Positions 3,294-30,438 of a DNA stretch of 37,152 nucleotides are shown piece after piece. Within the stretch, counting starts at the first letter, position 1, and every line of letters starts with the position of its first letter. This DNA is from Anaerolineae bacterium. Its GTDB lineage: Bacteria > Chloroflexota > Anaerolineae > Anaerolineales > Villigracilaceae. The translations under genes were made by a program, and so were the position numbers. The notes under the pieces are model-generated. The model saw nothing but the letters and a program-made list of their open reading frames with translations, had not been told where the DNA came from and searched no databases. Location: NCBI GenBank assembly GCA_017303655.1, contig JAFLCE010000037.1, positions 1 to 37,152 of the forward strand. The letters are read 5' to 3'.

Positions 3294-4355
3294 TTATATC
3301 AACGCCTCAAAATCATATTCAATAAAAGGCAGATTCTGCTCAATGCGGGGCTTGCGGTTTCGCATGAAGTTGGCGATCCACATATGACCATCGCTGTTGA
3401 TGTCGAAACCGGGAGTCTGTTTAAAGCGTTCGAGTACCCAGTGCTCAACGCCATCGATCTGAAAATCTCGATGGACCACGGCATACAGTTCAAGCTCGCG
3501 CAATTTAAGAAAGGCAGGGATCTCTTTCAGCCACGCAGGCGACAAGCTATAGGCTTGACGATAGCCTCGCAGAAAATGGGTCATAAACTCATGCGTAAAA
3601 GAGGCGGAGTCTTTGAATCCCAGTTCTTCAGCATCCATTGAAATATAGAAGAGCACGATGGCAATGTCGTTGATAAACCAACTGTAGGCGCAGTCGTCGA
3701 AGTCAAAGAGCGTCAGCGCCCCATCCGCATCCATGAAGAAGTTATTTTGATGGGCATCTTGATGGACAAGACCATAGGATGTTTTATCTTTAGGCAGGGC
3801 ATGGATATGCTCGAGCAGGGACAAATAGTTCTGATGCGCGCGGACTTCCGCCTTGGGCAGGTACAGCTCAATAAAATTCAGGCTGACATCGTTCCATTCC
3901 GGGCGTCGCCAGGCAGGCACGGGTTGATAGTCCACGGTTAGGGCATGCATCTTGCCAAGCAGCCTGCCGTAGTTTTCGTAACGGGTGGACGTCCACCCGG
4001 CAACCCAGGGCTGTTGACCTTTCGCTTTGATAAATGCCGTGGCTAAAAATTGACCGCCCTGCGCGTCGTCAATGACTTCTACCAGCTTCCCGTTTTCAGA
4101 GGGAATCGCCCGCGCCACCGAGACGCCACCCCGCGCCAGATAATTGATCCAATCCAATTCGCCTTGAATGAGCGCTTCGCTCTTGCGAAAGCTGTGACCA
4201 ATGCGCAGAATGAAGCCCTGCCCCTCGCGCTCGAATTCGTAGATTATGCTCTCGAAGGAATCAAGCAAGTGGATCGCATCGCGAGCGATGCCATAACGGC
4301 GCATGGCTTCGTGCAAGATCGTGTCGTTATATCGGTCAATGATTTGCTGGTCCAT
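3294..4355 (-). CDS. APH-fold phosphotransferase (aminoglycoside/choline/homoserine kinase-like)
   Basis: 353 residues, the normal length for the aminoglycoside-phosphotransferase/ChoK-like fold. The catalytic loop reads LVHQDAHQNNFF, fitting the HxDxxxxN motif with catalytic Asp200 and Asn205, followed by the metal-binding DFDD at 218-221. The N-lobe has EFEREGQGFILRIGH in place of the usual ATP-binding strands. The family phosphorylates small hydroxyl substrates. The sequence does not say which one, and a resistance role should not be assumed. No signal peptide, so cytosolic. The start at 4355 lacks an SD, but a -10-like TAGCAT ends 7 bases before it (4363-4368), so the mRNA may be leaderless. 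Confidence 0.85.
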   Translation of the reverse strand: MDQQIIDRYNDTILHEAMRRYGIARDAIHLLDSFESIIYEFEREGQGFILRIGHSFRKSEALIQGELDWINYLARGGVSVARAIPSENGKLVEVIDDAQGGQFLATAFIKAKGQQPWVAGWTSTRYENYGRLLGKMHALTVDYQPVPAWRRPEWNDVSLNFIELYLPKAEVRAHQNYLSLLEHIHALPKDKTSYGLVHQDAHQNNFFMDADGALTLFDFDDCAYSWFINDIAIVLFYISMDAEELGFKDSASFTHEFMTHFLRGYRQAYSLSPAWLKEIPAFLKLRELELYAVVHRDFQIDGVEHWVLERFKQTPGFDINSDGHMWIANFMRNRKPRIEQNLPFIEYDFEALI

Positions 4356-4368
4356 GCGGCTTATGCTA
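4356..4368 (-). promoter_or_regulatory. Possible leaderless promoter of the APH-fold gene
   Basis: TAGCAT on the minus strand (4368-4363) ends 7 bases before the ATG at 4355. There is no SD sequence in the short leader. The hexamer is only a moderate match to TATAAT, so this is the weakest of the leaderless candidates in the window. Confidence 0.35.
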
Positions 4369-4406
4369 CTCGATTATGCGAGAATTACAACCCCTCCCAG
4401 TGTTTA

Positions 4407-4437
4407 GACTTCCGAAGTCTTGTAGACTTCGGAAGTC
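4407..4437. repeat. Paired REP-like palindromes GACTTC(C/G)GAAGTC
   Basis: Two 13-base palindromes, GACTTCCGAAGTC at 4407-4419 and GACTTCGGAAGTC at 4425-4437, lie in opposite orientation five bases apart. Together they form a larger hairpin, the layout of a REP doublet. The same unit recurs at 4782-4794 and inside the transposase gene near 11.1 kb. Confidence 0.8.
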
Positions 4438-4456
4438 TACGTCATACCTAACCTAC

Positions 4457-4717
4457 TCATTCATCAGCACGGACGAACTTCACCCACTTCTTGTTTACAT
4501 CCAAACCCACGATCTTCCAGCCAGCATTTGCCCATGCGCGCTTGTTGACGTGGTTGCCTTCTGTCTCATGATCCCACCAGCGCCGGTCTTCATACGCGGA
4601 CGCTGGCAGTTTACTGTTCAATATTCTTTCAATCTCTTCAAAACGAAGCGTCACTTCTCTTTGGCTTTCAGGAAGATCACGCAGATAATTTTCAAGCGGA
4701 CTATATTTACCAGGCAT
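4457..4717 (-). CDS. Small hypothetical protein, DUF7662-like
   Basis: 86 residues, cytosolic, with a good AAAGGA ahead of the ATG at 4717. Visible pattern: KYSPLENYLRDLP, LRFEEIERILNSKLPASAY, then RRWWDHE...HVNKRAWANAGWKI. The Y-PL-YL start, the FEEIE-IL...LP-SA segment and the W/H-rich second half recall the DUF7662 group of small proteins. I am moderately sure of that name and no function is established. It sits between REP-like palindromes at 4407-4437 and 4782-4794, so the gene is bracketed by the same repeat family found around the RAYT transposase. Confidence 0.7.
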   Translation of the reverse strand: MPGKYSPLENYLRDLPESQREVTLRFEEIERILNSKLPASAYEDRRWWDHETEGNHVNKRAWANAGWKIVGLDVNKKWVKFVRADE

Positions 4718-4781
4718 GACTATCCTTTCTTTTCTCTCTTAGCGCCAATCCCGAGGGTCGTAGCATGGACATTCGAGTTCA

Positions 4782-4794
4782 GACTTCCGAAGTC
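4782..4794. repeat. Single REP-like palindrome GACTTCCGAAGTC
   Basis: A single copy of the 13-base palindrome found in pairs at 4407-4437 and in the transposase gene. It lies just outside the stop codon of the gene ending at 4800. Confidence 0.75.
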
Positions 4795-4799
4795 TTAGT

Positions 4800-5300
4800 T
4801 TATTCCACAGATAGGCTATGGCTCAACCACAAGGCTGCTAACAGATAATGATCGGATTCGGGCTTGCTCTTCTGCGCGGACAAGTCCGTTGCCAATTGAT
4901 CGAACTCGGGCGTATCCTCCCCCTGCACAAAGCCATAACGCGCCTGCTGCCAGCCCCAGCTTTCAGGGACGGGGATGTTGGCTTCCCGCGCCGCCTTCGC
5001 AAGCGACTCGATCAACTCGTGTTGTTTCTCTGCCCATAAGCAGATGATCGCCTCCGCAAGCAGCTCGTTGACCTTGAATTCTTTAATCACCTGTATTTTT
5101 GCCATCTGTGGCGGAATGCTTTGAAAGGAACGAAACCCATTCACTTGGATGGTCTTCTTGAGAATATCCAACGCAAATTTATTTAGTTCTGGCGAAGCCT
5201 TGGGGTAGTGACCGAGCGCCTCCGCCACCACCAGTTGACGATACTCATCGTCCATCATTTCATTAACTTCGATCCACGGCAGTACATTTGTTTCTGTCAT
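4800..5300 (-). CDS. Hypothetical helical cytosolic protein
   Basis: 166 residues with no signal peptide or membrane segment. AAAGGAG lies about 6 bases before the ATG at 5300, so the start is secure. The composition suggests an all-helical protein: long stretches such as ELNKFALDILKKTIQ and VNELLAEAIICLWAEKQHELIESLAKAARE, with a Trp-rich turn (PESWGWQQARYGF) in the middle. I recognise no family and see no metal or catalytic motif. The next gene upstream is on the other strand, and the REP palindrome at 4782-4794 lies just downstream of the stop. Confidence 0.75.
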   Translation of the reverse strand: MTETNVLPWIEVNEMMDDEYRQLVVAEALGHYPKASPELNKFALDILKKTIQVNGFRSFQSIPPQMAKIQVIKEFKVNELLAEAIICLWAEKQHELIESLAKAAREANIPVPESWGWQQARYGFVQGEDTPEFDQLATDLSAQKSKPESDHYLLAALWLSHSLSVE

Positions 5301-5336
5301 TGTTTCTCCTTTGAATTCAAACTAACCCCTCCCAGC

Positions 5337-5355
5337 CTCCCCCAAAGGGGAGGGG
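5337..5355. other. Short GC hairpin in spacer
   Basis: CCTCCCC AAA GGGGAGG forms a 7-base stem with a 3-base loop, preceded by CCCCTCCC which could pair alternatively. There is no T-run, so a terminator role is uncertain. It may be a short interspersed element. Confidence 0.35.
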
Positions 5356-5481
5356 ATAAAGTCCTTACGCAACAAACTGTTAGTTCGTGGTCTATAGGGA
5401 TGCAAACCAGATTTCGGTAGTTGTAATTTGAAAAATTTGTTGTACACTGATTATAAACATTTATTCATAGGAGAGTGAAAA

Positions 5482-5934
5482 ATGAATATATATAGAAAAT
5501 TATTTAATGATAGCGGCATACAAAAACTGGACGAAGAGATAGATCCGATTAAAAAAGTGGGAATGGCGTTACGTGAATATGTTCCTGTAGACGTTACTGC
5601 ATTTTACTTAACTTTCTTTTCTGCCGCCGCTGGGCAACCCGAACCAGACAAATCATTAGCCCAATTTACAATCCTTCCAATTCTTGGATTAATTGCTACC
5701 TTTATAGTCAGTATCGCAAAAAATATAGATAGTAAATCTGAAGAACCTAAATGGTGGAAAAAAACACATTGGGGTGGCGTATTTGTCTCAACACTTGCAT
5801 TTGTTGGTTGGTTGTATGTATCTGGCGGACATTTCGGTACATTTGTATTCAAGCCTTTTTTTATTGCAATGGGCTTTACGTTTTTAGGGATAGTCGTCCC
5901 GGTAGTTTATGGACTTCTTAAAAAACCTAGTTGA
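5482..5934 (+). CDS. Hypothetical four-helix membrane protein
   Basis: 150 residues starting at an ATG with AGGAGA 7 bases upstream. About four hydrophobic segments are visible: near residues 36-52, 66-82 (ILPILGLIATFIVSI), 98-114 (GGVFVSTLAFVGWLYV) and 122-146. The cytoplasmic-looking N-terminus is charged. No family is recognised. The gene is clearly more AT-rich than its neighbours, which may mean recent acquisition. It ends with a TGA, and the same frame reopens 12 bases later in the next ORF, so the two could be one longer membrane protein split by a stop codon or a two-gene unit. Confidence 0.7.
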   Translation: MNIYRKLFNDSGIQKLDEEIDPIKKVGMALREYVPVDVTAFYLTFFSAAAGQPEPDKSLAQFTILPILGLIATFIVSIAKNIDSKSEEPKWWKKTHWGGVFVSTLAFVGWLYVSGGHFGTFVFKPFFIAMGFTFLGIVVPVVYGLLKKPS

Positions 5935-5946
5935 TTTTTTCAGGTC

Positions 5947-6267
5947 TTGCTTTTTTATTTATTAGCTGAGGTTATTGAAATAAACACTCAAAGTTTATTT
6001 GGTCCGGTTGGTGGTTTTGTAATAGCAGCTGCTTCTTATCTTTCTCCTTTTGGAGAAGTTGTATTCACCCTTATATTAGCAATCAGTGGAGTTGATGCTC
6101 CACTAAATTGCTGGCAAGCCATAGACGAATCATCTTCCAACATTGCTAGTGTTTGTTACCCATATAGTGACCCAATTTCTTTGCTCTTTTTATCAAACTT
6201 GCTTGTAGCAGGAGCAATAGGGCTTATTGTTTGGTTTATTATCAGCTCTTCAAAAAAAAGTAATTAG
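5947..6267 (+). CDS. Hypothetical small membrane protein, TTG start
   Basis: 106 residues in the same frame as the preceding gene, separated from it by one TGA and three or four codons. The only start in the right place is the TTG at 5947, with no usable SD (AGG ends one base before it). Hydrophobic helices are seen at about 17-32, 36-50 and 80-100, with a Cys-containing loop between (LNCWQAIDESS, SVCYPYSD) and a basic tail SSKKSN. The absence of initiation signals fits translational coupling, readthrough, or a single gene interrupted by a stop. It shares the AT-rich composition of its neighbour. No family recognised. Confidence 0.5.
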   Translation: MLFYLLAEVIEINTQSLFGPVGGFVIAAASYLSPFGEVVFTLILAISGVDAPLNCWQAIDESSSNIASVCYPYSDPISLLFLSNLLVAGAIGLIVWFIISSSKKSN

Positions 6268-6360
6268 ATATCTTAATCTAACTTTTCACAACTCTCTCTT
6301 AAGCATCCTATCTAGCACGAACAAACCAACCTCTACCCCTTCGGGGCACTCGTCCCCAGC

Positions 6361-6385
6361 CCTCCCCCCCGTAGCGGACTGACTC
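6361..6385. repeat. Left copy of a direct repeat flanking the hydrolase gene
   Basis: CCTCCCCCCCGTAGCGGACT followed by GACTC. A near-identical copy, CCTCCCCCATAGCGGACT followed by GTGACTC, lies at 7195-7219. The two bracket the hydrolase gene, and this copy overlaps its stop codon. Confidence 0.6.
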
Positions 6386-7139
6386 ACCAATGTTTCCGAA
6401 TAAATTCGTGGGTTTTCATAGCTACCTCTTTCCACTCACTATCCAGTGTCACATCATGACCGCAGTTGTGCAAAGCCATAAGCGTCTTCTCCGTTGTACC
6501 CATATGATCATATGTAAATTGTGCGCTCTTGGGCGCAATCAGTCGGTCAAGCGTGCTATAGACGATCAGAACGGGAGAAAGGATGCCTGGCAACAAGTGC
6601 TGCACCCGTGCTCGCAAGCGTGCCATTTCATGGACGCCAAAAAGTGACACGGACGGATAGTGCCACAATCGATCCAGCGCATGCGGGTCGGTGGCAAAAT
6701 CAGGTGACTTGCGTATGATCGGCAGTAGATACTTGAGCATCGGCACGAGGTGGATGGCGACTCCTCCCGGCATTTTGACCAAGGGTGAATAGAGAATTAC
6801 GCCTTTTAGATCAGGGTGCTCCGCGGCTAGATGCAACGCGAGAAGGGACCCTAATGAAATGCCTGCTACAAAGACAGTCTGGCAGCGCGATTTCAGGTCC
6901 ATGAGAGCGGTGTCAACGTGCTGAGTCCAGTGCTGCCAGTGCTGTTGACTAAGATCAGCAATCGTTGTGCCATGACCAGGTAATAGAGGAGCAACAACCG
7001 TCAGCCCCTGCTGATGCAAAGCTTCTCCGACCAGCCTCACTTGAGTAGGGGAAGCAGTAAAGCCATGGATGAGCAATATACCTACGTCCCCGCCTGCTAA
7101 TTCAAAAGGAGAAGGATCAAGAGAGCTGGACGTCTTCAT
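6384..7139 (-). CDS. Alpha/beta hydrolase (carboxylesterase/monoacylglycerol lipase-like)
   Basis: 251 residues, the typical size for the Est30/monoacylglycerol-lipase group. The oxyanion-hole segment LLIHGFTASP comes first, then the nucleophile elbow GISLGS with Ser95, Asp198 in YSTLDRL and His228 in NCGHDV, completing a Ser-Asp-His triad. A cap region lies at about 120-180. No signal peptide, so cytosolic hydrolysis of short esters or monoacylglycerols is likely. The exact substrate is unknown. The SD before the ATG at 7139 is weak. The gene is tightly bracketed by a direct repeat of about 20 bases (6361-6385 and 7195-7219), which suggests it arrived as a unit. Confidence 0.88.
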   Translation of the reverse strand: MKTSSSLDPSPFELAGGDVGILLIHGFTASPTQVRLVGEALHQQGLTVVAPLLPGHGTTIADLSQQHWQHWTQHVDTALMDLKSRCQTVFVAGISLGSLLALHLAAEHPDLKGVILYSPLVKMPGGVAIHLVPMLKYLLPIIRKSPDFATDPHALDRLWHYPSVSLFGVHEMARLRARVQHLLPGILSPVLIVYSTLDRLIAPKSAQFTYDHMGTTEKTLMALHNCGHDVTLDSEWKEVAMKTHEFIRKHW

Positions 7140-7194
7140 TTATTACCATTACTACTTTCCAAATTCAGGGACAGTAACTTCTCCAGAATCTCAT

Positions 7195-7219
7195 CCTCCC
7201 CCATAGCGGACTGTGACTC
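7195..7219. repeat. Right copy of the direct repeat flanking the hydrolase gene
   Basis: CCTCCCCCATAGCGGACT followed by GTGACTC, matching the copy at 6361-6385 except for a two-base C difference, a G/A change and a two-base TG insertion. Confidence 0.6.
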
Positions 7220-7330
7220 CCTCAACACAATAACCATCACCTACAAGCATCACGATAGGTAAACAATATGCAGCAACTCTTATAGTCAATAACTACAATA
7301 CATTCTTATATATGTTTTATCTTAAACATC

Positions 7331-9025
7331 TTACGAAACGATTTTACTTATAGCCCACATTGCCATTAATTGCCGTTTTGGGATTCTGTTTTTAGGCAAA
7401 TTTGAAATTCGGGCATCTTCATACACTTCTTTTTCAGTATCATATTTCTCAATAAAAGACTTGATTTCATTAACAAGTTGTATGGGAGAAAGAATATCAC
7501 TTTCTCTAGAAACATTCGCCTCTAAAAGCTCTTGTAATTTTTTGGGGCTGCCAATTTTTCCATCAAACTCCTGAGCGAATTCAATCATAAATTTCTGAGA
7601 GTCACCCTTCATCTTACTATGAAGAAAAGCCTCTATAGCTTTTCTAGTTGATGATGTTATGTTTACAACTTCAAATTCTTTTCCAGATCCTAGAAAGACC
7701 GAACAATACCACTTTTTACCATTGGTTTCAGGAGACGGTTCTGACCTTGCATCAAAATTTGTAAGCGCTACAGTCATATTTCCATCTTTGAAAGGGTGCA
7801 TTCGGAATTTCGCGCCATTCTTCTTCTTAGGTGGCGCGTTAAAATTAGCAATGGTTGAACTATTTAAGTTATTTACTAGTTTGTAGCTTTCTGTTTGGTC
7901 AGAAAAATCTAAAGCTCTAATAGGAGGTAGGTTTAACCTTACTCGGATTTCTTTTGCAAGTGCAGCAGACATATGTGGGCAAACAGCATTACCAATTTGT
8001 TTCCATTTGGAACCCTCCCCACCTACAAATTGATAGGTGTATGGAAAACCCATCAATGTAGAAGCTTCTCGAATTGTTGGCAAACGATATTGCCCATCAC
8101 CTACTCTGTTAATTTCTGAAGGAAAAATCAGAGCTTCTCGGGTGCTTGCAGAGCGAGTTGCCATAATTGTGCGACATGGTTTACTCTCATCTTCTGGGAA
8201 TGACATACGACCCATATAAGGGTGATTAGTCTTTGCGAATTTCGCCATTTCCCACTCAACCATATAAAGCCCAGTATCATAAAAATGATCTGTCAATTCA
8301 TCTTTTGATAAGACTAGTTCAGGATAATTTGGATCACTGAAAGAAGAACTATCCTTTGAGATAGGCGATGGCATATTTTTTTTAATATCTTGTAATGTAA
8401 CATGTCTTCTTGGCTTATCTACTCCATGAGTAACGATTGGACTAGGGAATTCTCCAGTTGAGACAATTTCTCCGCAAATAAACCTTTGTCGCGATTGAGG
8501 AGAACCATAGTCAGCCGCTACAAACAAGCCCCCATTATCTTTTGCTCTCAACGCCTCATCATTTGGCTTTTTTCCTACACTTTTAGCCCAGTCGCCTAAA
8601 CCTAAATCTTTAAATGTGTAAACCTCTTGTACCCAATTTCGTGAATTAGGCACGTTCTCCATAAGCCAAGCTTTTAATATCGAATTTGGTTGATGTTTCT
8701 TGACGGCAACAACTCTTAGATAAGCTTCTATCAACCGTACACCTAGAGATTTATCTGCTTTTCCAGCTTTGTTTGCCATAGAGAAGTTAACACATGGTGG
8801 GCTACCAATAATGATTTCTGTATTAGGCAGCGCATTAATTACATCTATACTTTTTTCAAACTCTAAAATATCTCTAACCGTGTCATTAAGACCATGGTTA
8901 AGATTATGCGTTTCAATTGCAGGGCGCCAATTATCAACACCCATGACAATCTTAAATCCTTGTTGGCGGAAACCTTCCGAAAAGCCGCCCGCGCCACAGA
9001 AAAAGTCAATTGCTCGTAGTTGCAT
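7331..9025 (-). CDS. DNA (cytosine-5) methyltransferase of a type II R-M system
   Basis: 564 residues. It transfers a methyl group from SAM to cytosine C5 in the target site, protecting DNA from the neighbouring nuclease. Motifs are in canonical order: I DFFCGAGGFSEGF (8-20), IV GSPPCVNFS with catalytic Cys78, VI MENV (122-125), VIII QSRQRF (177-182), IX-like RTIMATRS (285-292) and X GNAV (345-348). The target-recognition region would fall between VIII and IX. The core ends near residue 370. About 195 further residues, Lys/Asn-rich and AT-rich, form an extra C-terminal region not usual in this family. Divergent from the nuclease gene at 9112 across 86 bases. By partner, the target is probably GATC. 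Confidence 0.92.
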   Translation of the reverse strand: MQLRAIDFFCGAGGFSEGFRQQGFKIVMGVDNWRPAIETHNLNHGLNDTVRDILEFEKSIDVINALPNTEIIIGSPPCVNFSMANKAGKADKSLGVRLIEAYLRVVAVKKHQPNSILKAWLMENVPNSRNWVQEVYTFKDLGLGDWAKSVGKKPNDEALRAKDNGGLFVAADYGSPQSRQRFICGEIVSTGEFPSPIVTHGVDKPRRHVTLQDIKKNMPSPISKDSSSFSDPNYPELVLSKDELTDHFYDTGLYMVEWEMAKFAKTNHPYMGRMSFPEDESKPCRTIMATRSASTREALIFPSEINRVGDGQYRLPTIREASTLMGFPYTYQFVGGEGSKWKQIGNAVCPHMSAALAKEIRVRLNLPPIRALDFSDQTESYKLVNNLNSSTIANFNAPPKKKNGAKFRMHPFKDGNMTVALTNFDARSEPSPETNGKKWYCSVFLGSGKEFEVVNITSSTRKAIEAFLHSKMKGDSQKFMIEFAQEFDGKIGSPKKLQELLEANVSRESDILSPIQLVNEIKSFIEKYDTEKEVYEDARISNLPKNRIPKRQLMAMWAISKIVS

Positions 9026-24034: not shown

Positions 24035-26488
24035 CTATATTTTCAAGTTTCGCAAGCGCAAACTATTTGTCACCACAAAGACACTGCTGAACGCCATCGC
24101 ACCCGCGGCGAGCATCGGGTTCAAATAACCAAGCATCGCAGCAGGGATGAGGATAATGTTGTAAATGAACGCCCAGAACAGATTTTGTTTAATGGTGGTC
24201 AAAGTCTTACGTGAAAGTTTGATCGCGCGCGCAACACCGCGCAGGTCACCACTCATCAGAGTCACAGGCGCCGCAGCCATGGCTACATCCGTACCCGTTC
24301 CAATGGCAAGACCTACATCCGCTTGTGCGAGAGCAGGCGCATCGTTCACACCATCACCGACCATAGCTACTACATTTTCGATTTTTGATTTCTGATTGAC
24401 GATTGACGATTGCAACTTCTTGACTTCGGCAGATTTGCCTTCGGGTAAAACCTCAGCCAGCACAACATCAATTCCGACTTGCTTCGCAATCGCTTCGGCA
24501 GTTTTTTGGTTATCGCCAGTGATCATCGCAACTTTCAAGCCCATCTTGTGCAGGTCAGCAATCGCATCTTTCGAACTGTCTTTGATCGTATCTGCCACCG
24601 CAATGATTCCTGCAGCAGTATTATCAATGGCAACCAACATCGCGGTCTTGGCTTCGGATTGCAGACGCGACACTTCGGATTCGAGATTGCCCAACGAGAT
24701 TCCTCTCGCTTCGAACATTCTCTTGTTCCCAACCATAACGCTTCTTCCTTCGACCTCGGCTTGAACGCCATGCCCAGCCTCTGCCTTAAACCCAGCCGGA
24801 TCCACTAATGTCAATCCGCGAGTTGTGGCTTCAGCCCAGATCGCTTCACCGAGTGGATGTTCACTGCCTTTTTCAACACTCGCTGCCAAACGAAGCAGTT
24901 CGTCTGCGGTCAATCGTTCATCGTCCGTGGTCACAATATCCGTCACCGCAGGCTGCCCTTTGGTAATCGTCCCAGTTTTATCCAGCACCACCACAGAGAC
25001 TTTTCCTGCTCGTTCCAAAGCTTCACTATTTCTAAAAAGGATGCCCGCTTCGGCGCCTTTGCCCGTCCCGACCATGATGGCGGTAGGAGTGGCGAGTCCC
25101 ATTGCACATGGACAAGCAATCACAAGCACAGCGACCATGTAAATAAGGGCACGGGTGAAATTATTGACATCCGAGTCGATTGGCAAGGCAGGACCAAAGA
25201 AGTACCAGCCGAAAAACGTCAGCGTGGCGATGGCAATAACAACGGGAACAAACACCGCCGAGACTTGATCCGCCATTTTTTGGATCGGAGCCTTGCTGCC
25301 CTGCGCATCTTCCACGAGCTTAATGATCTGTGCCAGCGCGGTTTCTTTTCCAACTTTGGTAGCTTCGAATTTCAGCATACCCATCTTGTTAAGCGTCGCG
25401 CCAATAACTGGGTCGCCGGGCATTTTTTGAACCGGCAGAGACTCGCCCGTCAGCATGGATTCATCAATGGCACTGCGACCTTCGATCACAACCCCATCTA
25501 CCGGAATTTTCTCACCCGGCTTGACGATGACCACATCCCCCACGCGGACATCGTCCACAGGGATTTCAATTTCAACATTATCACGGATGGCATGTGCAAT
25601 CCTAGCACGCAGACCCATCATCTTCTTGATAGCATCGGATGTGCGTCCCTTGGCACGAGCTTCGAGGAACTTACCGAGCTTTATCAATGTGATAATGACC
25701 GCCGCCGTCTCAAAATAGACGTGACCTGTGAGAAAACCAAATGTGATCGGCAGTGAGTAAAAGAAAGCAGCCGACGAACCCATCACGATCAGCACATCCA
25801 TGTTCGCAGACTTATTACGCAGCGCCTTGTATGCACCAACGTAATACTGCCAACCAACATAAAATTGCACGGGCGCAGCAAGCAGGAACATGCCGAAATG
25901 CACCAATGAATCATGCAACCACAATCCTTTTATAAGACCAAAATCCCGCGCCATTGAAAACACAAACAGTGGCACGGTAAAGATAAGACCGATGATTAGC
26001 AGGCGGCGCTGTTCGTTAATCTCATTTTCGCGTGCCACGGCTTCGGCATCTTCTGCCGCACCGCCAAGTTCGATGGCTTCAAAACCGGCGGCAGATACTG
26101 CACGGCGTAATTCAGCTTGCGTGATGATCGTTGGCACATAAACGATATACGCCTTCTCCAGCGTGAAAGAGACATGCCCCTTGAGCACACCTTCTAATTT
26201 GAGTAAGGCTTGCTCTAGCCGACGGGCATCGTTATCGTCGGACATGCGTTTAATGATAAGTTCCGCTTCACCAGTGGCAACGCCATACCCGGCGCGATCG
26301 ATGCGGGCGATGACATCGGTCAAGCCGAGTTTCGAGGCGTCAAAATCCAATGTGGCGCGCTCAGAGGAGAGATTCACCACTGCGCTTTGCACGCCGTCGA
26401 GTTTCTTTAAATTGCGCTCCACGGTGGCGACGCAGTTGGCACAGGTCATGCCGGTGATGGGGAGTGTGAGTTGCTTTATTTCGGTCAT
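24035..26488 (-). CDS. copA: Copper-exporting P1B-type ATPase
   Basis: 817 residues, pumping Cu(I) out of the cytosol. Order of domains: first HMA domain with GMTCANC (Cys16, Cys19), a second HMA-like domain (77-140) in which the motif reads MSDDND, eight membrane helices, the actuator loop with TGES (347-350), CPC in the sixth helix (Cys459, Cys461), phosphorylation motif DKTGT (Asp503), HP in the nucleotide domain and the [10 protein letters not shown] hinge. This is a complete Cu(I) ATPase. Both copper-binding Cys of the second HMA domain are replaced by Asp. It ends the leftward operon csoR-cupredoxin-copZ-copA, which should be induced when CsoR releases DNA on binding copper. Confidence 0.96.
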
Positions 26489-26504
26489 TCGAACCTTCTT
26501 TGAA

Positions 26505-26540
26505 AAGACCTGACAGGTTTTTAAAAACCTGTCAGGTCTT
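26505..26540. repeat. 36-base perfect palindrome between copZ and copA
   Basis: AAGACCTGACAGGTTTTT (26505-26522) is followed immediately by its exact reverse complement (26523-26540). It lies between the copZ stop and the copA start, so it would form a strong mRNA hairpin in the intercistronic region. Each half contains a smaller palindrome of the form ACCTGACAGGT, resembling the REP-like units elsewhere in the window. Confidence 0.8.
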
Positions 26541-26545
26541 GAACA

Positions 26546-26764
26546 CTACAAAGTGAGCAAACCTTCAGCAGGGTAATTGATCTCAGCAAGCAACGCCTTG
26601 ATCTTCGCTTCGTCAGCGGGCGCATCGAAAGTGATAACAACCTTCTTGGTGGTTTCTTCAGCCTTCACGGACTGAACGCCCTGCAATTCACCCACTTCTG
26701 TTTCGATGGTGTGGGTGCAATGTCCGCAGGAAATTGCGGGAACGGAATAAGTAACTGTAGTCAT
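26546..26764 (-). CDS. copZ: CopZ-like copper chaperone
   Basis: 72 residues, a single HMA domain: TVTYSVPAISCGHCTHTIETEVG, with the copper-binding pair in SCGHC and the second half VKAEETTKKVVITFDAPADEAKIKALLAEINYPAEG. It carries Cu(I) in the cytosol and hands it to CopA. The ATG at 26764 is chosen because AAGGAG lies 8 bases upstream. A longer frame would add a basic, unconserved N-terminus. It lies between the cupredoxin gene (28 bases upstream) and copA, with the 36-base palindrome in the gap before copA. A His in the CxxC spacer (CGHC) is common in CopZ proteins. Confidence 0.92.
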   Translation of the reverse strand: MTTVTYSVPAISCGHCTHTIETEVGELQGVQSVKAEETTKKVVITFDAPADEAKIKALLAEINYPAEGLLTL

Positions 26765-26792
26765 GAGTTTTTCTCCTTGAATTTTGTTTTTA

Positions 26793-27200
26793 TTATTTGA
26801 CAATTAACTCGCCCGTCATACCGGCATCGAGATGACCGGGAACAGAGCAAATAATTTTATAGGTACCGGGCTCGGTAACAGTGAATGTGAGCGTACTGGT
26901 CTCACCCGCCGTAGTGGATGAGTGCAGGTCGAATTCCGAATGTTCATCGGTGGACATGTGATGGTCGCCCGAATTGGAGATGGAAACATTCTCTACCGGA
27001 ATGATTTCGATCACGAAATCATGTTCGATGGCGCCTTCATTGACCAGGGTCAATTCCACAGGCGTGCCCACCGCTACTGTGATGGTATTCGGCTCAAAGC
27101 CAAATTCCTTCATGGTCAGGGTGGCTTTTGTCACCGACTGCCCTGAACAAGCGGACAGAAACATCACCAATACAACCGGTAAGACTTTCTTAAACAACAT
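26793..27200 (-). CDS. Cupredoxin lipoprotein
   Basis: 135 residues. A signal ends in lipobox LSAC (Cys18), so the protein is anchored outside the membrane. The body is a cupredoxin: IEHDF with ligand His60, and CSVPGHLDAGM with Cys118, His123 and Met128, a complete type-1 copper site. Between the two halves is an inserted loop (about 71-95) with four His and several acidic residues (GDHHMSTDEHSEFDLH). This may bind extra copper. It could be an electron donor to the nitrite reductase encoded nearby or an external copper-buffering protein. Placement inside the csoR-copZ-copA operon favours a copper-handling role. Confidence 0.9.
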   Translation of the reverse strand: MLFKKVLPVVLVMFLSACSGQSVTKATLTMKEFGFEPNTITVAVGTPVELTLVNEGAIEHDFVIEIIPVENVSISNSGDHHMSTDEHSEFDLHSSTTAGETSTLTFTVTEPGTYKIICSVPGHLDAGMTGELIVK

Positions 27201-27226
27201 AGAGTAGCCTCCAAAAATATAGTTGA

Positions 27227-27496
27227 TTAAACTTTCGTAGACATTTCGAACACTTCAGTAATTTCTTTCAACACCCGTTCGCGTTCCTTCTTGTCATTGC
27301 CTTGAATGGCGGTAATGACGCAGGAATTCAGATGGTCTTCAAGAATTCTCGAGCTGACTTTGTTCAACGCCGCTTCCACGGCCTGTATCTGGCGGATGAT
27401 GTCGATACAATAAGCATCTTCCTCCACCATACGGATGACGCCGCGCAGGTGTCCTTCCACTGTCTTTAATCGTCTAAGTGTCGCTTCGTTTTCCAT
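27227..27496 (-). CDS. csoR: CsoR-family copper-sensing repressor
   Basis: 89 residues, all-helical. The start at 27496 (MENEATLRRLKTVEGHLRGV) matches the family N-terminus and has GAGG upstream. The Cu(I) site is the Cys-His-Cys triad typical of CsoR: Cys30 (DAYCIDI), His55 and Cys59 (EDHLNSC). FrmR- and RcnR-type relatives lack this exact set, so copper is the likely signal. In the apo form it should bind the C/G-tract palindrome at 27538-27557, just 42 bases upstream, shutting off its own operon with the cupredoxin, copZ and copA. Copper binding releases it. Confidence 0.92.
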   Translation of the reverse strand: MENEATLRRLKTVEGHLRGVIRMVEEDAYCIDIIRQIQAVEAALNKVSSRILEDHLNSCVITAIQGNDKKERERVLKEITEVFEMSTKV

Positions 27497-27537
27497 GGTT
27501 ACCTCTAGCTTCCAGATACAGTTTGCTGTTTTTCTCT

Positions 27538-27557
27538 TACCCCCCCCCAGGGGGGTA
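27538..27557. promoter_or_regulatory. CsoR-type operator
   Basis: TACCCCCCCCCAGGGGGGTA: a 20-base near-palindrome of C- and G-tracts with TA ends, the form established for CsoR operators. It lies in the divergent region between csoR (start 27496) and the Crp/Fnr gene (start 27637), so it could control either or both. Confidence 0.8.
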
Positions 27558-27624
27558 GGGATAGAAGAAATATAAGGCATCCCCTACCCTCCGTCAAGTC
27601 GATAAATGTCATCGGATTGGGGTG

Positions 27625-27636: not shown

Positions 27637-28338
27637 ATGAAAATTTCGTCCAAAGACCTAAAGCAGGTCGTCGTTTTTGAGCACTGCACAGACGATGATC
27701 TGAACCTGATCCTGAAGAATAGCATCACCCGCTCCTTAGAAGAAGGCAGCTTCTTCTTTATGCAGGGAGATGAAGCAGAGTACCTGTATATTCTCACCAG
27801 CGGACAGGTCAAATTGATGCAGTCGAATCCGAACGGACAGCAAGTCAATTTGCGAACGATTTACCCGTGGCAGATGTTCGGTGCGTTGGGCGTCACACGC
27901 GGCCCAGGAGCTACATACCCAGCCACCGCTGAAACCCTGGAAAATAGCACTGCGCTTGCAATTCAAAGTGCCTTTTTGAATTCGATGATGGAAACCCGCT
28001 CCTATCTCTCCTTCGATCTGATGAACCTTATGACGTCTTATATTCAGGAGATGCAGGTACGTTACCGCGAACTTGCAACCGAGAAGGTCGAGCAGAGAGT
28101 GGCTAACGCGTTGATCCGCCTGGCAGGGCAAGCAGGCATAAAGTCGGAAAAAGAGGCGGGCATTGAACTATCCTTCTCACGACAAGATGTGGCAGAGATG
28201 ACAGGCACTACGGTGTACACGGTTAGTCGCCTCTTAAGTGAATGGGAAAGACGCGGCTCTATAAAAACGGGCAGGGAAAGGATTACCATCCTAAAACCGC
28301 ACGATCTGGTACGAATTGCGGAAGGTCTCGAAGAATAA
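27637..28338 (+). CDS. Crp/Fnr-family transcription regulator
   Basis: 233 residues. An N-terminal cyclic-nucleotide-binding-like beta barrel (about 10-120, with EEGSFFFMQGDEAEYLYILTSGQVKLM) is followed by the long dimerisation helix and a winged-helix DNA-binding domain at about 160-230 (LSFSRQDVAEMTGTTVYTVSRLLSEWERRG). There is no Fnr-type Cys cluster: only one Cys (Cys17), so oxygen sensing through an iron-sulfur cluster is unlikely. Haem- or NO-responsive members (DNR-like) have the same architecture and commonly control nitrite reductase. It precedes the DUF1858-nirK pair and probably binds the palindrome at 28381-28396. It faces csoR across a shared promoter region. Confidence 0.9.
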   Translation: MKISSKDLKQVVVFEHCTDDDLNLILKNSITRSLEEGSFFFMQGDEAEYLYILTSGQVKLMQSNPNGQQVNLRTIYPWQMFGALGVTRGPGATYPATAETLENSTALAIQSAFLNSMMETRSYLSFDLMNLMTSYIQEMQVRYRELATEKVEQRVANALIRLAGQAGIKSEKEAGIELSFSRQDVAEMTGTTVYTVSRLLSEWERRGSIKTGRERITILKPHDLVRIAEGLEE

Positions 28339-28432: not shown

Positions 28433-28663
28433 ATGAGCGATGATTTTGCGATTTCAGAAACCAGTGTAGAAAGTCTGCTGAAAGCCACACCCAAAGCCGT
28501 CCGCTTCTTTTTGGACCGGCACTTGGGATGTGTCGGCTGCGGATTTGCCCGTTTCTGCACGTTGGGCGATGTCGTCAAGACCTATCACATTGACGAACAG
28601 CCTTTTCTGGAAGAGGCACAAAATTTACTCGTTCAAACAAACGTAATTAGGAGTTCAGAATGA
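28433..28663 (+). CDS. DUF1858 small redox-disulfide protein
   Basis: 76 residues. The family signature is present: an N-terminal helix VESLLKATPKAVRFFLDRHLG, then CVGCGFARFCTLGDVVKTYHI with Cys33, Cys36 and Cys42. DUF1858 proteins are described as hybrid-cluster-protein-associated redox-disulfide domains and often sit near nitrogen-oxide metabolism genes. The stop overlaps the nirK start (ATGA at 28660-28663), so the two are translationally coupled and made together. A role in NO handling, electron transfer or maturation of NirK is plausible but inferred. The ATG at 28433 has no good SD, so the transcript may be close to leaderless. Confidence 0.85.
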   Translation: MSDDFAISETSVESLLKATPKAVRFFLDRHLGCVGCGFARFCTLGDVVKTYHIDEQPFLEEAQNLLVQTNVIRSSE

Positions 28664-30438
28664 AACTTTATACAAGATTTTCTGCTTTGATGATCCTGCT
28701 TGGACTTTTCATAACAGCCTGTGCAGGCGCAAGTTTCCAAAATGTTGACAAGGAATATGTATTGACCACCGACCTGCGAGATGGACGATTGGTCTTCCTC
28801 GGAGTCAGCGATGAGATCAATGGGATGGAAAATCCCACCCTCAGCGCCAAGCCTGGTGAACGCATCACCGTCACCTTAATCAACGGCGGTGAAGGCGAGC
28901 ACGATGTCACCTTCCCGGAAGTCAACGCCTCTACCAAAGTACTCGAAGAAAAAGGTGAAGAATCTTCCGTCACATTCACGGTGCCAAGCATTCACGGCGA
29001 AATGGAATATTATGACAGCGTTGGCAATCATAAAGAATTAGGTATGTGGGGAAAACTACTGGTGACCGAATCTGGTGAGATGGCGATGCCTGCAGCAAAT
29101 ACAACCAGCAATGGTGATCCTGCCGTGATCGCTGCCTTTCAAAAGGGCGCCTGCGGTTCATGCCATGAAATTCCTGGCATTCCGAATGCAGTCGGCGTTG
29201 TTGCCCCCAGCCTTGCCGATGCAAAGATGACCGCTGAAGAACACATTGCGGATGCTGCCTACACGGGTGCAGCTACCACCTCAGAAGAATACTTGCACGA
29301 ATCGATCCTTGAACCGAACCTGTTCATCGCTCCCAAATGCCCCACTGGCGCTTGTGTTCCAGATGTGATGCCTGCTACATTAGCGGAATCACTAACGACC
29401 GATGAGATCAACGCCATCGTCACCTATTTGAATGGACTTCCCGAAGGTGCATACATCGAAGCGACCACTTCAGGTGAATCAGCCACGATTCCACAAGAAC
29501 CCGATAACAGCGGCGTAGACATCATCCGCGAACCGAGTGACCTGCCCGGTCCGATCGGTGACCGCGAACCGCAAGTTGTCCGTATTGACCTCGAAGCGAC
29601 TGAAGTCATCGGTCAGCTCGCCGATGGAACCACCTACACCTACTGGACGTTCAATAATCAAGTCCCCGGACCATTCTTCCGCGTGCGCATTGGCGACACC
29701 ATCGAAGTTCACATGAAGAACAGCGGCTCCAGCACTATGAACCACTCGGTTGACTTCCATGCAGTCACGGGTCCCGGTGGCGGCGCGGTGATGACCCAAA
29801 CCCAACCCGGTCAAGAAACTGTCTTCACAGCCAAAGCACTCAACGCAGGTTTATTCGTCTATCACTGTGCCACCCCAATGGTGGCTGACCATATCTCGAA
29901 TGGCATGTACGGTCTCATCCTCGTTGAACCCGAAGGCGGGCTTCCCCCCGTGGACCGCGAATTCTATGTGATGCAAGGCGAACTCTATACCGCTGGTGCA
30001 TTCGGTGAACAAGGTCACCAAATGGGCGACACTACCAAACTGCTCAACGAAGACCCTGAGTACTTTGTCTTCAACGGCGCAGCAAATGCACTCGTGCAGA
30101 AACCGCTCAAAGCCAATGTTGGCGAAAGCGTACGCATCTTCTTCGGGGTCGGCGGACCGAACTTCACGTCCTCCTTCCATGTCATCGGTGAAATTTTCGA
30201 CCGCGTGTACGATCAAGCCTCACTTACCAGCGCACCCCTCACAGACGTGCAGACCACCCTCGTCCCACCCGGAGGCGCAACCATGGTCGAGTTCAATGTT
30301 GAAGTGCCCGGCAACTTCATCCTTGTTGACCATGCCCTCTCTCGTCTACAACGTGGTCTCGCCGGATACCTCGTCGTCGAAGGCGACCCCAACCCCGAGA
30401 TCATCAACGGTACCCCTTCCTCTGGAAGCGGACACTAA
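28660..30438 (+). CDS. nirK: Copper nitrite reductase with N-terminal cupredoxin and cytochrome c domains
   Basis: 592 residues; reduces nitrite to NO outside the membrane, lipid-anchored through lipobox ITAC (Cys21). Domain 1 (about 30-138) is a cupredoxin with His81 and HKELGM (His124, Met129) but Asp119 where the copper Cys should be. Domain 2 (about 150-265) is cytochrome c with CGSCH (165-169) and probable axial Met237. Domain 3 (about 300-580) is an AniA-type reductase: type-1 ligands His362, Cys403, His411, Met416; type-2 ligands His367, His402 and His558; catalytic Asp365 and His507. The core is intact. It follows DUF1858 by a 4-base overlap and ends at a strong terminator. Confidence 0.93.
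   Translation: MKLYTRFSALMILLGLFITACAGASFQNVDKEYVLTTDLRDGRLVFLGVSDEINGMENPTLSAKPGERITVTLINGGEGEHDVTFPEVNASTKVLEEKGEESSVTFTVPSIHGEMEYYDSVGNHKELGMWGKLLVTESGEMAMPAANTTSNGDPAVIAAFQKGACGSCHEIPGIPNAVGVVAPSLADAKMTAEEHIADAAYTGAATTSEEYLHESILEPNLFIAPKCPTGACVPDVMPATLAESLTTDEINAIVTYLNGLPEGAYIEATTSGESATIPQEPDNSGVDIIREPSDLPGPIGDREPQVVRIDLEATEVIGQLADGTTYTYWTFNNQVPGPFFRVRIGDTIEVHMKNSGSSTMNHSVDFHAVTGPGGGAVMTQTQPGQETVFTAKALNAGLFVYHCATPMVADHISNGMYGLILVEPEGGLPPVDREFYVMQGELYTAGAFGEQGHQMGDTTKLLNEDPEYFVFNGAANALVQKPLKANVGESVRIFFGVGGPNFTSSFHVIGEIFDRVYDQASLTSAPLTDVQTTLVPPGGATMVEFNVEVPGNFILVDHALSRLQRGLAGYLVVEGDPNPEIINGTPSSGSGH

Follow-up and report, generated by a model that had tools for sequence, protein, structure and literature searches.

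It is an open question why some nitrite reductases have extra domains tethered to them. For such tethered forms, the reported activity is roughly tenfold below that of the plain enzymes (PMC13324648). In the NirK hexamer of Hyphomicrobium denitrificans, the N-terminal domains of two trimers are described as lying head to head, with the N-terminal copper about 24 Å from the core copper, a distance that seems too great for electrons to be passed on effectively from the tethered copper (PMC7201279). The electron-transfer role of this N-terminal domain is debated (PMC7201279, PMC4770552), and pulse radiolysis has been interpreted as electron entry via its copper (PMC7201279).

Larger architectures have also been published. 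The NirK of Bradyrhizobium sp. ORS 375 (BrNiR) is described as having four domains, with a cytochrome and a cupredoxin in N-terminal positions (PMC7775769, PMC12117333, PMC8301774). The PDB title of 6the reads 'heme-cupredoxin-Cu', and a review lists a BrNiR version without the cytochrome and likens the three-domain version to the Hyphomicrobium enzyme; from these, the order is apparently cytochrome, cupredoxin, core. In Chloroflexi, Schwartz et al. 2022 (PMC8756737) reported cupredoxin-C1-NirK fusions in a few metagenome-assembled genomes, which they deemed a possible artefact, and also named cupredoxin-C1-C2-NirS. The four-module architecture is, then, already described. A preliminary description of the locus analysed here had held that known tethered enzymes carry either an N-terminal cupredoxin or a C-terminal cytochrome c, a limit to one extra domain which BrNiR shows to be wrong; the layout that it set against these is also found in the Chloroflexi fusions. 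We examined this locus in a 37,152-nucleotide stretch of an Anaerolineae genome of the Villigracilaceae, hereafter the window.

Domain organization of the window protein

The open reading frame at 28660-30438 (+) encodes a protein of 592 amino acids, ordered as lipoprotein signal, cupredoxin, class I cytochrome c and NirK core. The layout that had been proposed, with both extra domains N-terminal of the core, was thus confirmed, and the protein belongs among the four-domain tethered NirKs. Its features are as follows:

28660..28722, + strand: signal peptide with lipobox ITAC, read from the sequence with the lipobox rule given in PMC8301774; Cys21 is the predicted lipidated first residue
28753..29064, + strand: N-terminal cupredoxin, residues ~32-135, with Asp for the type-1 copper Cys
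28900..28902, + strand: His81, first His ligand position by alignment
29014..29016, + strand: Asp119 (GAC), Cys ligand position by alignment
29029..29031, + strand: His124, second His ligand position; Asn, Phe, Tyr or Ser in some relatives
29044..29046, + strand: Met129, axial Met ligand position by alignment
29122..29442, + strand: class I cytochrome c domain, residues 155-261 (Pfam Cytochrome_CBB3 below cut-off; C1 profile; tree)
29152..29166, + strand: haem c attachment motif CGSCH, residues 165-169
29368-29370, + strand: Met237, likely axial ligand
29515..30435, + strand: NirK core, residues 286-592 (TIGR02376 above cut-off; ligands invariant; PDB matches)

The cytochrome domain, which we regard as the C1 of Schwartz et al. 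2022, has the CxxCH motif and the distal Met, and C165, C168, H169 and M237 were invariant over the 38 rows of alignment A2. The core scored 313.6 bits against TIGR02376, the NCBI copper nitrite reductase model, whose curated cut-off is 296.3. Its nearest solved counterparts were the cores of H. denitrificans (2dv6, 6tfd) and BrNiR (6the), with AniA behind these. Conservation was assessed in 16 four-module sequences, namely the window protein and 15 relatives (among the best 80 of 391 relatives). The type-1 ligands H362, C403, H411 and M416, the type-2 ligands H367, H402 and H558, and the catalytic D365 and H507 were each invariant (16/16). These roles were set by alignment to 2dv6 and by general NirK knowledge. 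The full-length predicted structure was poor in the core (pTM 0.45).

The first domain has a cupredoxin fold and lacks the Cys thiolate ligand. Asp119 aligned with the type-1-copper Cys of the Hyphomicrobium N-terminal cupredoxin, with His81, His124 and Met129 retained; residue 119 therefore sits on the Cys ligand position and not off it, which bears out the earlier reading of this substitution. Because the thiolate is absent, the domain should not form a normal type-1 centre. Calling it 'dead' is incomplete as far as it implies decay, given the single origin of the Asp, its presence in every relative examined, the purifying selection on the domain and its occurrence on NirS fusions. The set His81-Asp119-His124-Met129 was complete in 14 of the 16 four-module NirKs (second His, 14/16), so that the window protein may have a weak or type-2 copper site.

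Distribution of Asp- and Cys-cupredoxins

Matches to the first domain were found in 84 of 400 genomes of the order Anaerolineales, 65 of which were examined; the other 19 had weaker matches (E 1.3e-17 or worse). Identical ORFs were dropped before counting (L075 = L074), leaving 85 domains with the Hyphomicrobium reference included. Among these, Asp was present in all 43 N-terminal cupredoxins with a further electron-transfer domain behind them, either C1 or a second cupredoxin with Cys. Specifically, these were 17 cupredoxin-C1-NirKs, the first domains of 15 cupredoxin-cupredoxin-NirKs, 9 cupredoxin-C1-C2-NirS fusions and 2 cupredoxin-C1 ORFs. One of the latter (L065) lies on a short contig, and its copy L132 extends to the contig end; after the other (L071, on the same contig as L138), NirS follows in another frame. 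The remaining 42 domains all had Cys and comprised 15 second cupredoxins, 20 single-cupredoxin NirKs, the Hyphomicrobium reference and 6 domains labelled stand-alone by the script, one of which (L096) can be assigned to NirK from the YHC motif at the same locus. All 17 cupredoxin-C1-NirKs fell in the genus group of the window, so the search of other genomes proposed for this architecture yielded 17 genomes, counting that of the window, all from a single genus group. Similarly, Asp was found in 31/31 loci with a cupredoxin and C1 (among the best 80 of 391 relatives), a set that overlaps the 85 domains, so that the two counts are not additive. Since the Asp rule goes back to one ancestral change (see below), these many rows are not independent.

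The order also contains another type of NirK, which consists of an Asp-cupredoxin followed by a normal Cys-cupredoxin, with no CxxCH (L052, L053, L055, L057-L063, L066, L070, L072, L073 and L077). The first-domain loop was two residues shorter in 13 of these 15 NirKs, as it was in 4 of the 9 cupredoxin-C1-C2-NirS fusions, which makes the placing of the second His less sure in those domains.

Beyond the order, Asp was looked for in samples of the class and the phylum, which are not full surveys, and none was seen. The class sample gave Cys in 18/18 domains outside the order, from 19 loci picked among the matches listed, one of which (L199) had no such domain. Cys was likewise present in 17/17 fetched loci outside family f1 in the phylum sample, a count that repeats two loci of the class sample and leaves out nine weaker matches outside family f1 without a locus. 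Among 471 matched records, five regions were inspected for plasmid-borne relatives of the whole protein. The NirK genes in four of them are annotated at ~880-1070 bases and so leave no room for extra domains; the fifth region, from Deinococcus, has a cupredoxin with Cys and no CxxCH. A plasmid-borne relative of the whole protein was therefore rejected for these five regions.

Phylogeny and selection

The cupredoxin tree was built from 85 domains and 93 columns, with the ligand loop (Cys/Asp position through Met) left out. One Cys-to-Asp change sufficed, with a support of 98/95 on the branch separating Asp from Cys domains, and repeated independent loss of the Cys was not needed to fit this tree. 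The sequences thus suggest that the change arose once, in an ancestor within the Anaerolineales. The cupredoxin-C1-NirK clade had a support of 90/21. The NirS context changed 6 times on this tree, and 5 of these changes were forced by well-supported branches. The C1 tree (83 rows, 107 columns) required one change between NirK and NirS, and its 29 C1-NirK rows formed one clade (100/90). Cupredoxin presence or absence switched 9 times on it, and 9 C1-NirK rows had no cupredoxin. As there were few columns for the number of rows, many forks are unsure in both trees. Taken together, the changes in NirS context and in cupredoxin presence indicate that the Asp-cupredoxin family came to stand before different cores, or disappeared from them, on several occasions.

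Selection was estimated by a simple counting method of dN/dS, for which 24 of 120 pairs had dS under 2 in all three regions. For 16 four-module genes, the median omega was 0.12-0.15 in the cupredoxin, 0.14-0.17 in C1 and ~0.09 in the core, indicating that the first domain is not decaying. The ligand positions behaved differently from one another within the Asp clade. Among 42 distinct Asp domains, Asp and Met were present in 42/42 with no change each. The first His was kept in 39/42 with one change, the other three having Gln, and the second His in 31/42 with 7 changes (as many as the median column), the other 11 having Asn, Phe, Tyr or Ser. The NirS fusion L125 carries Leu for Met. All four ligands were present in 41/41 distinct Cys domains, with no change. 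A conserved four-ligand copper site across the whole Asp clade was not supported, given the drift of the second His. In a blue copper site the second His is the usual electron entry point, and its drift therefore fits a loss of electron transfer. The Asp clade had 14 unchanged columns out of 104, including that of Asp119. That Asp stays constant even in domains without the His suggests that it contributes to the fold or to an interface, and does not act solely as a ligand.

Gene neighbourhood and denitrification context

The genes next to nirK in the window are as follows:

26793..27200, - strand: lipoprotein cupredoxin with Cys, His and Met, a separate gene; possible electron or copper partner
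27637..28338, + strand: CRP/FNR-type regulator gene
28433..28663, + strand: 76-aa redox-disulfide domain gene (TIGR03980 just below cut-off, DUF1858 below cut-off), overlapping the nirK start

The redox-disulfide gene is of the hybrid-cluster-protein-associated type (TIGR03980). A TIGR03980-like gene lay upstream of nirK in 15/15 four-module relatives and a CRP-type gene in 14/15, the exception being L115, which ends at the contig end. At cupredoxin-C1-NirS or truncated loci, the upstream homologues were present in 11/16 (TIGR03980-like) and 8/16 (CRP-type, one of them on the opposite strand). All four counts are among the best 80 of 391 relatives. Because these upstream genes are common to both, NirK and NirS fusions often seem to occupy the same gene slot. 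The Villigracilaceae locus L111 contains a cupredoxin-C1-NirK (3908-5686) followed directly by a C1-C2-NirS (5873-7912), so that both kinds of nitrite reductase, with related front modules, are adjacent.

A copper P-type ATPase, the lipoprotein cupredoxin and a CsoR-type repressor lie at 24035-27580 of the window, divergent from the regulator-nirK genes. Within the same 15 relatives (among the best 80 of 391), the copper ATPase was beside nirK in 13 and the CsoR-type repressor in 14, and a homologue of the lipoprotein cupredoxin in only two (L111 and L112); a weak third match, in L117, was the first domain of the L117 NirK itself.

The genome to which the window belongs has two heme-copper oxidase subunit I loci (L210, L211); in one, subunit II carries a fused cytochrome c, and the other looks B-type. 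Judged by their neighbours, both probably encode oxidases, as opposed to NO reductases. One NosZ family (TIGR04246) gave five matches in this genome, none above the cut-off, and the organism may therefore stop at NO. With an assembly completeness of 93.55%, such gene absences are provisional. Four matches to the cd1 propeller family PF02239 were obtained, of which three (L212, L213 and L215) were above the 25.5-bit cut-off with low scores (33.6; 27.9; and 22.8, or 39.4 when its neighbours are counted in). A divergent cd1-like protein may thus be present in this genome.

Discussion

The window gene probably encodes a membrane-anchored NirK with electron entry through its haem, in which the first cupredoxin lost electron transfer once and persisted as a redox-silent domain for anchoring, docking or assembly. 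Electrons would pass from a membrane donor to the C1 haem, then to the core type-1 copper and on to the type-2 copper, where nitrite would be reduced to nitric oxide. A single Cys-to-Asp change in an Anaerolineales ancestor would have ended electron transfer through the first domain, and the Asp-cupredoxin would then have been retained as a redox-silent unit before NirK and cd1 NirS. This route, the lack of a redox copper in the first domain and its docking or assembly role are what we infer from comparing the sequences. Haem entry, already favoured in the preliminary description, is the most likely route, since the haem motif is intact and every examined member of the Asp family has a second electron-transfer domain. 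For a redox-silent docking or assembly role, the head-to-head domains of Hyphomicrobium offer a precedent. The pulse radiolysis of that enzyme, read as entry via the N-terminal copper, counts against the preferred reading, and the C1-NirK relatives without a cupredoxin (the 9 rows of the C1 tree) speak against the cupredoxin being necessary.

These same rows would suit the view that the first domain is a functionless relic, left in place once electron delivery had passed to the haem domain, and the 9 switches on the C1 tree indicate that the cupredoxin can be lost. Such a relic is improbable, however, when purifying selection on the domain is similar to that on C1, when the unchanged columns of the Asp clade include Asp119 itself, and when the domain is retained in 17 four-module NirKs and occurs before other cores. 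Far less credible is an origin of the Asp, or of the fusion, in an assembly or sequencing artefact, a worry that Schwartz et al. 2022 raised about the fusion. Most source records are indeed metagenome-assembled genomes, but 17 genomes of a single genus group, with that of the window among them, each contain a distinct gene of this architecture, which argues against an artefact. Moreover, 15 relatives (among the best 80 of 391, and overlapping with the 17) are 66-86% identical to the window protein, the upstream genes are conserved and Asp is found in every one of these proteins. We reject this reading on account of the many assemblies.

It is rather unlikely, though worth weighing, that a natural type-2-like copper centre, with His81, Asp119, His124 and Met129 as ligands, persists in the first domain and serves copper storage, sensing, core loading or slow redox tuning instead of fast electron transfer. 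All four positions are metal-capable in the window protein and in 14/16 four-module NirKs, Asp and Met did not change across the Asp clade, and copper genes (the CsoR-type repressor, the copper P-type ATPase and another cupredoxin) are nearby; C112D azurin, moreover, is a copper protein (PMC8915257). Against this, the second His drifts like an average column and is replaced in 11/42 distinct Asp domains, the first His is Gln in 3, and L125 has Leu for Met. Core loading, in addition, would not account for the same domain on the haem-based NirS. Also unlikely, and put forward tentatively, is a broader proposal in which the Asp-cupredoxin family would bind copper or another metal through His-Asp-His-Met without blue-copper transfer and would serve as an exchangeable membrane-side unit for different entry domains and two unrelated nitrite reductase cores.

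The redox-silent reading that we prefer bears on the reason for tethering. These genes amount to a natural experiment, in which the copper thiolate of a tethered cupredoxin was removed once and the domain, which also fronts the haem-based NirS, was kept under selection. A structural or docking role would therefore be separable from an electron-transfer role.

Among the nearest counterparts are the fusions of Schwartz et al. 2022, whose domain order and phylum match those of the window NirK. The words 'aspart', 'cysteine' and 'ligand' are absent from the main text of PMC8756737 (supplements apart), and the parts consulted make no mention of one Asp-cupredoxin family before both cores, nor of NirKs with an Asp- plus a Cys-cupredoxin. 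No report of an Asp-cupredoxin family was found in the literature searched, with most subscription papers outside its scope. BrNiR (core structure 6the) has a core 63% identical to that of the window and likewise carries both extras N-terminally, but its apparent order of haem, cupredoxin and core differs from that of the window protein (cupredoxin 32-135, haem 165-169, core from 286 on). The H. denitrificans NirK (2dv6, 6tfd, 6tfo) has no haem domain and, unlike the window protein, a cupredoxin with Cys and type-1 copper. C112D azurin carries the Cys-to-Asp substitution at the same ligand of a cupredoxin and is reported to have a reorganization energy well above that of the wild type (PMC8915257). 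It is a laboratory mutant of a stand-alone carrier, whereas the Asp of the window protein is natural, fixed in a clade and located inside an enzyme. Altogether, what looks new is a conserved, single-origin Cys-to-Asp cupredoxin family that fronts both NirK and NirS in the Anaerolineales.
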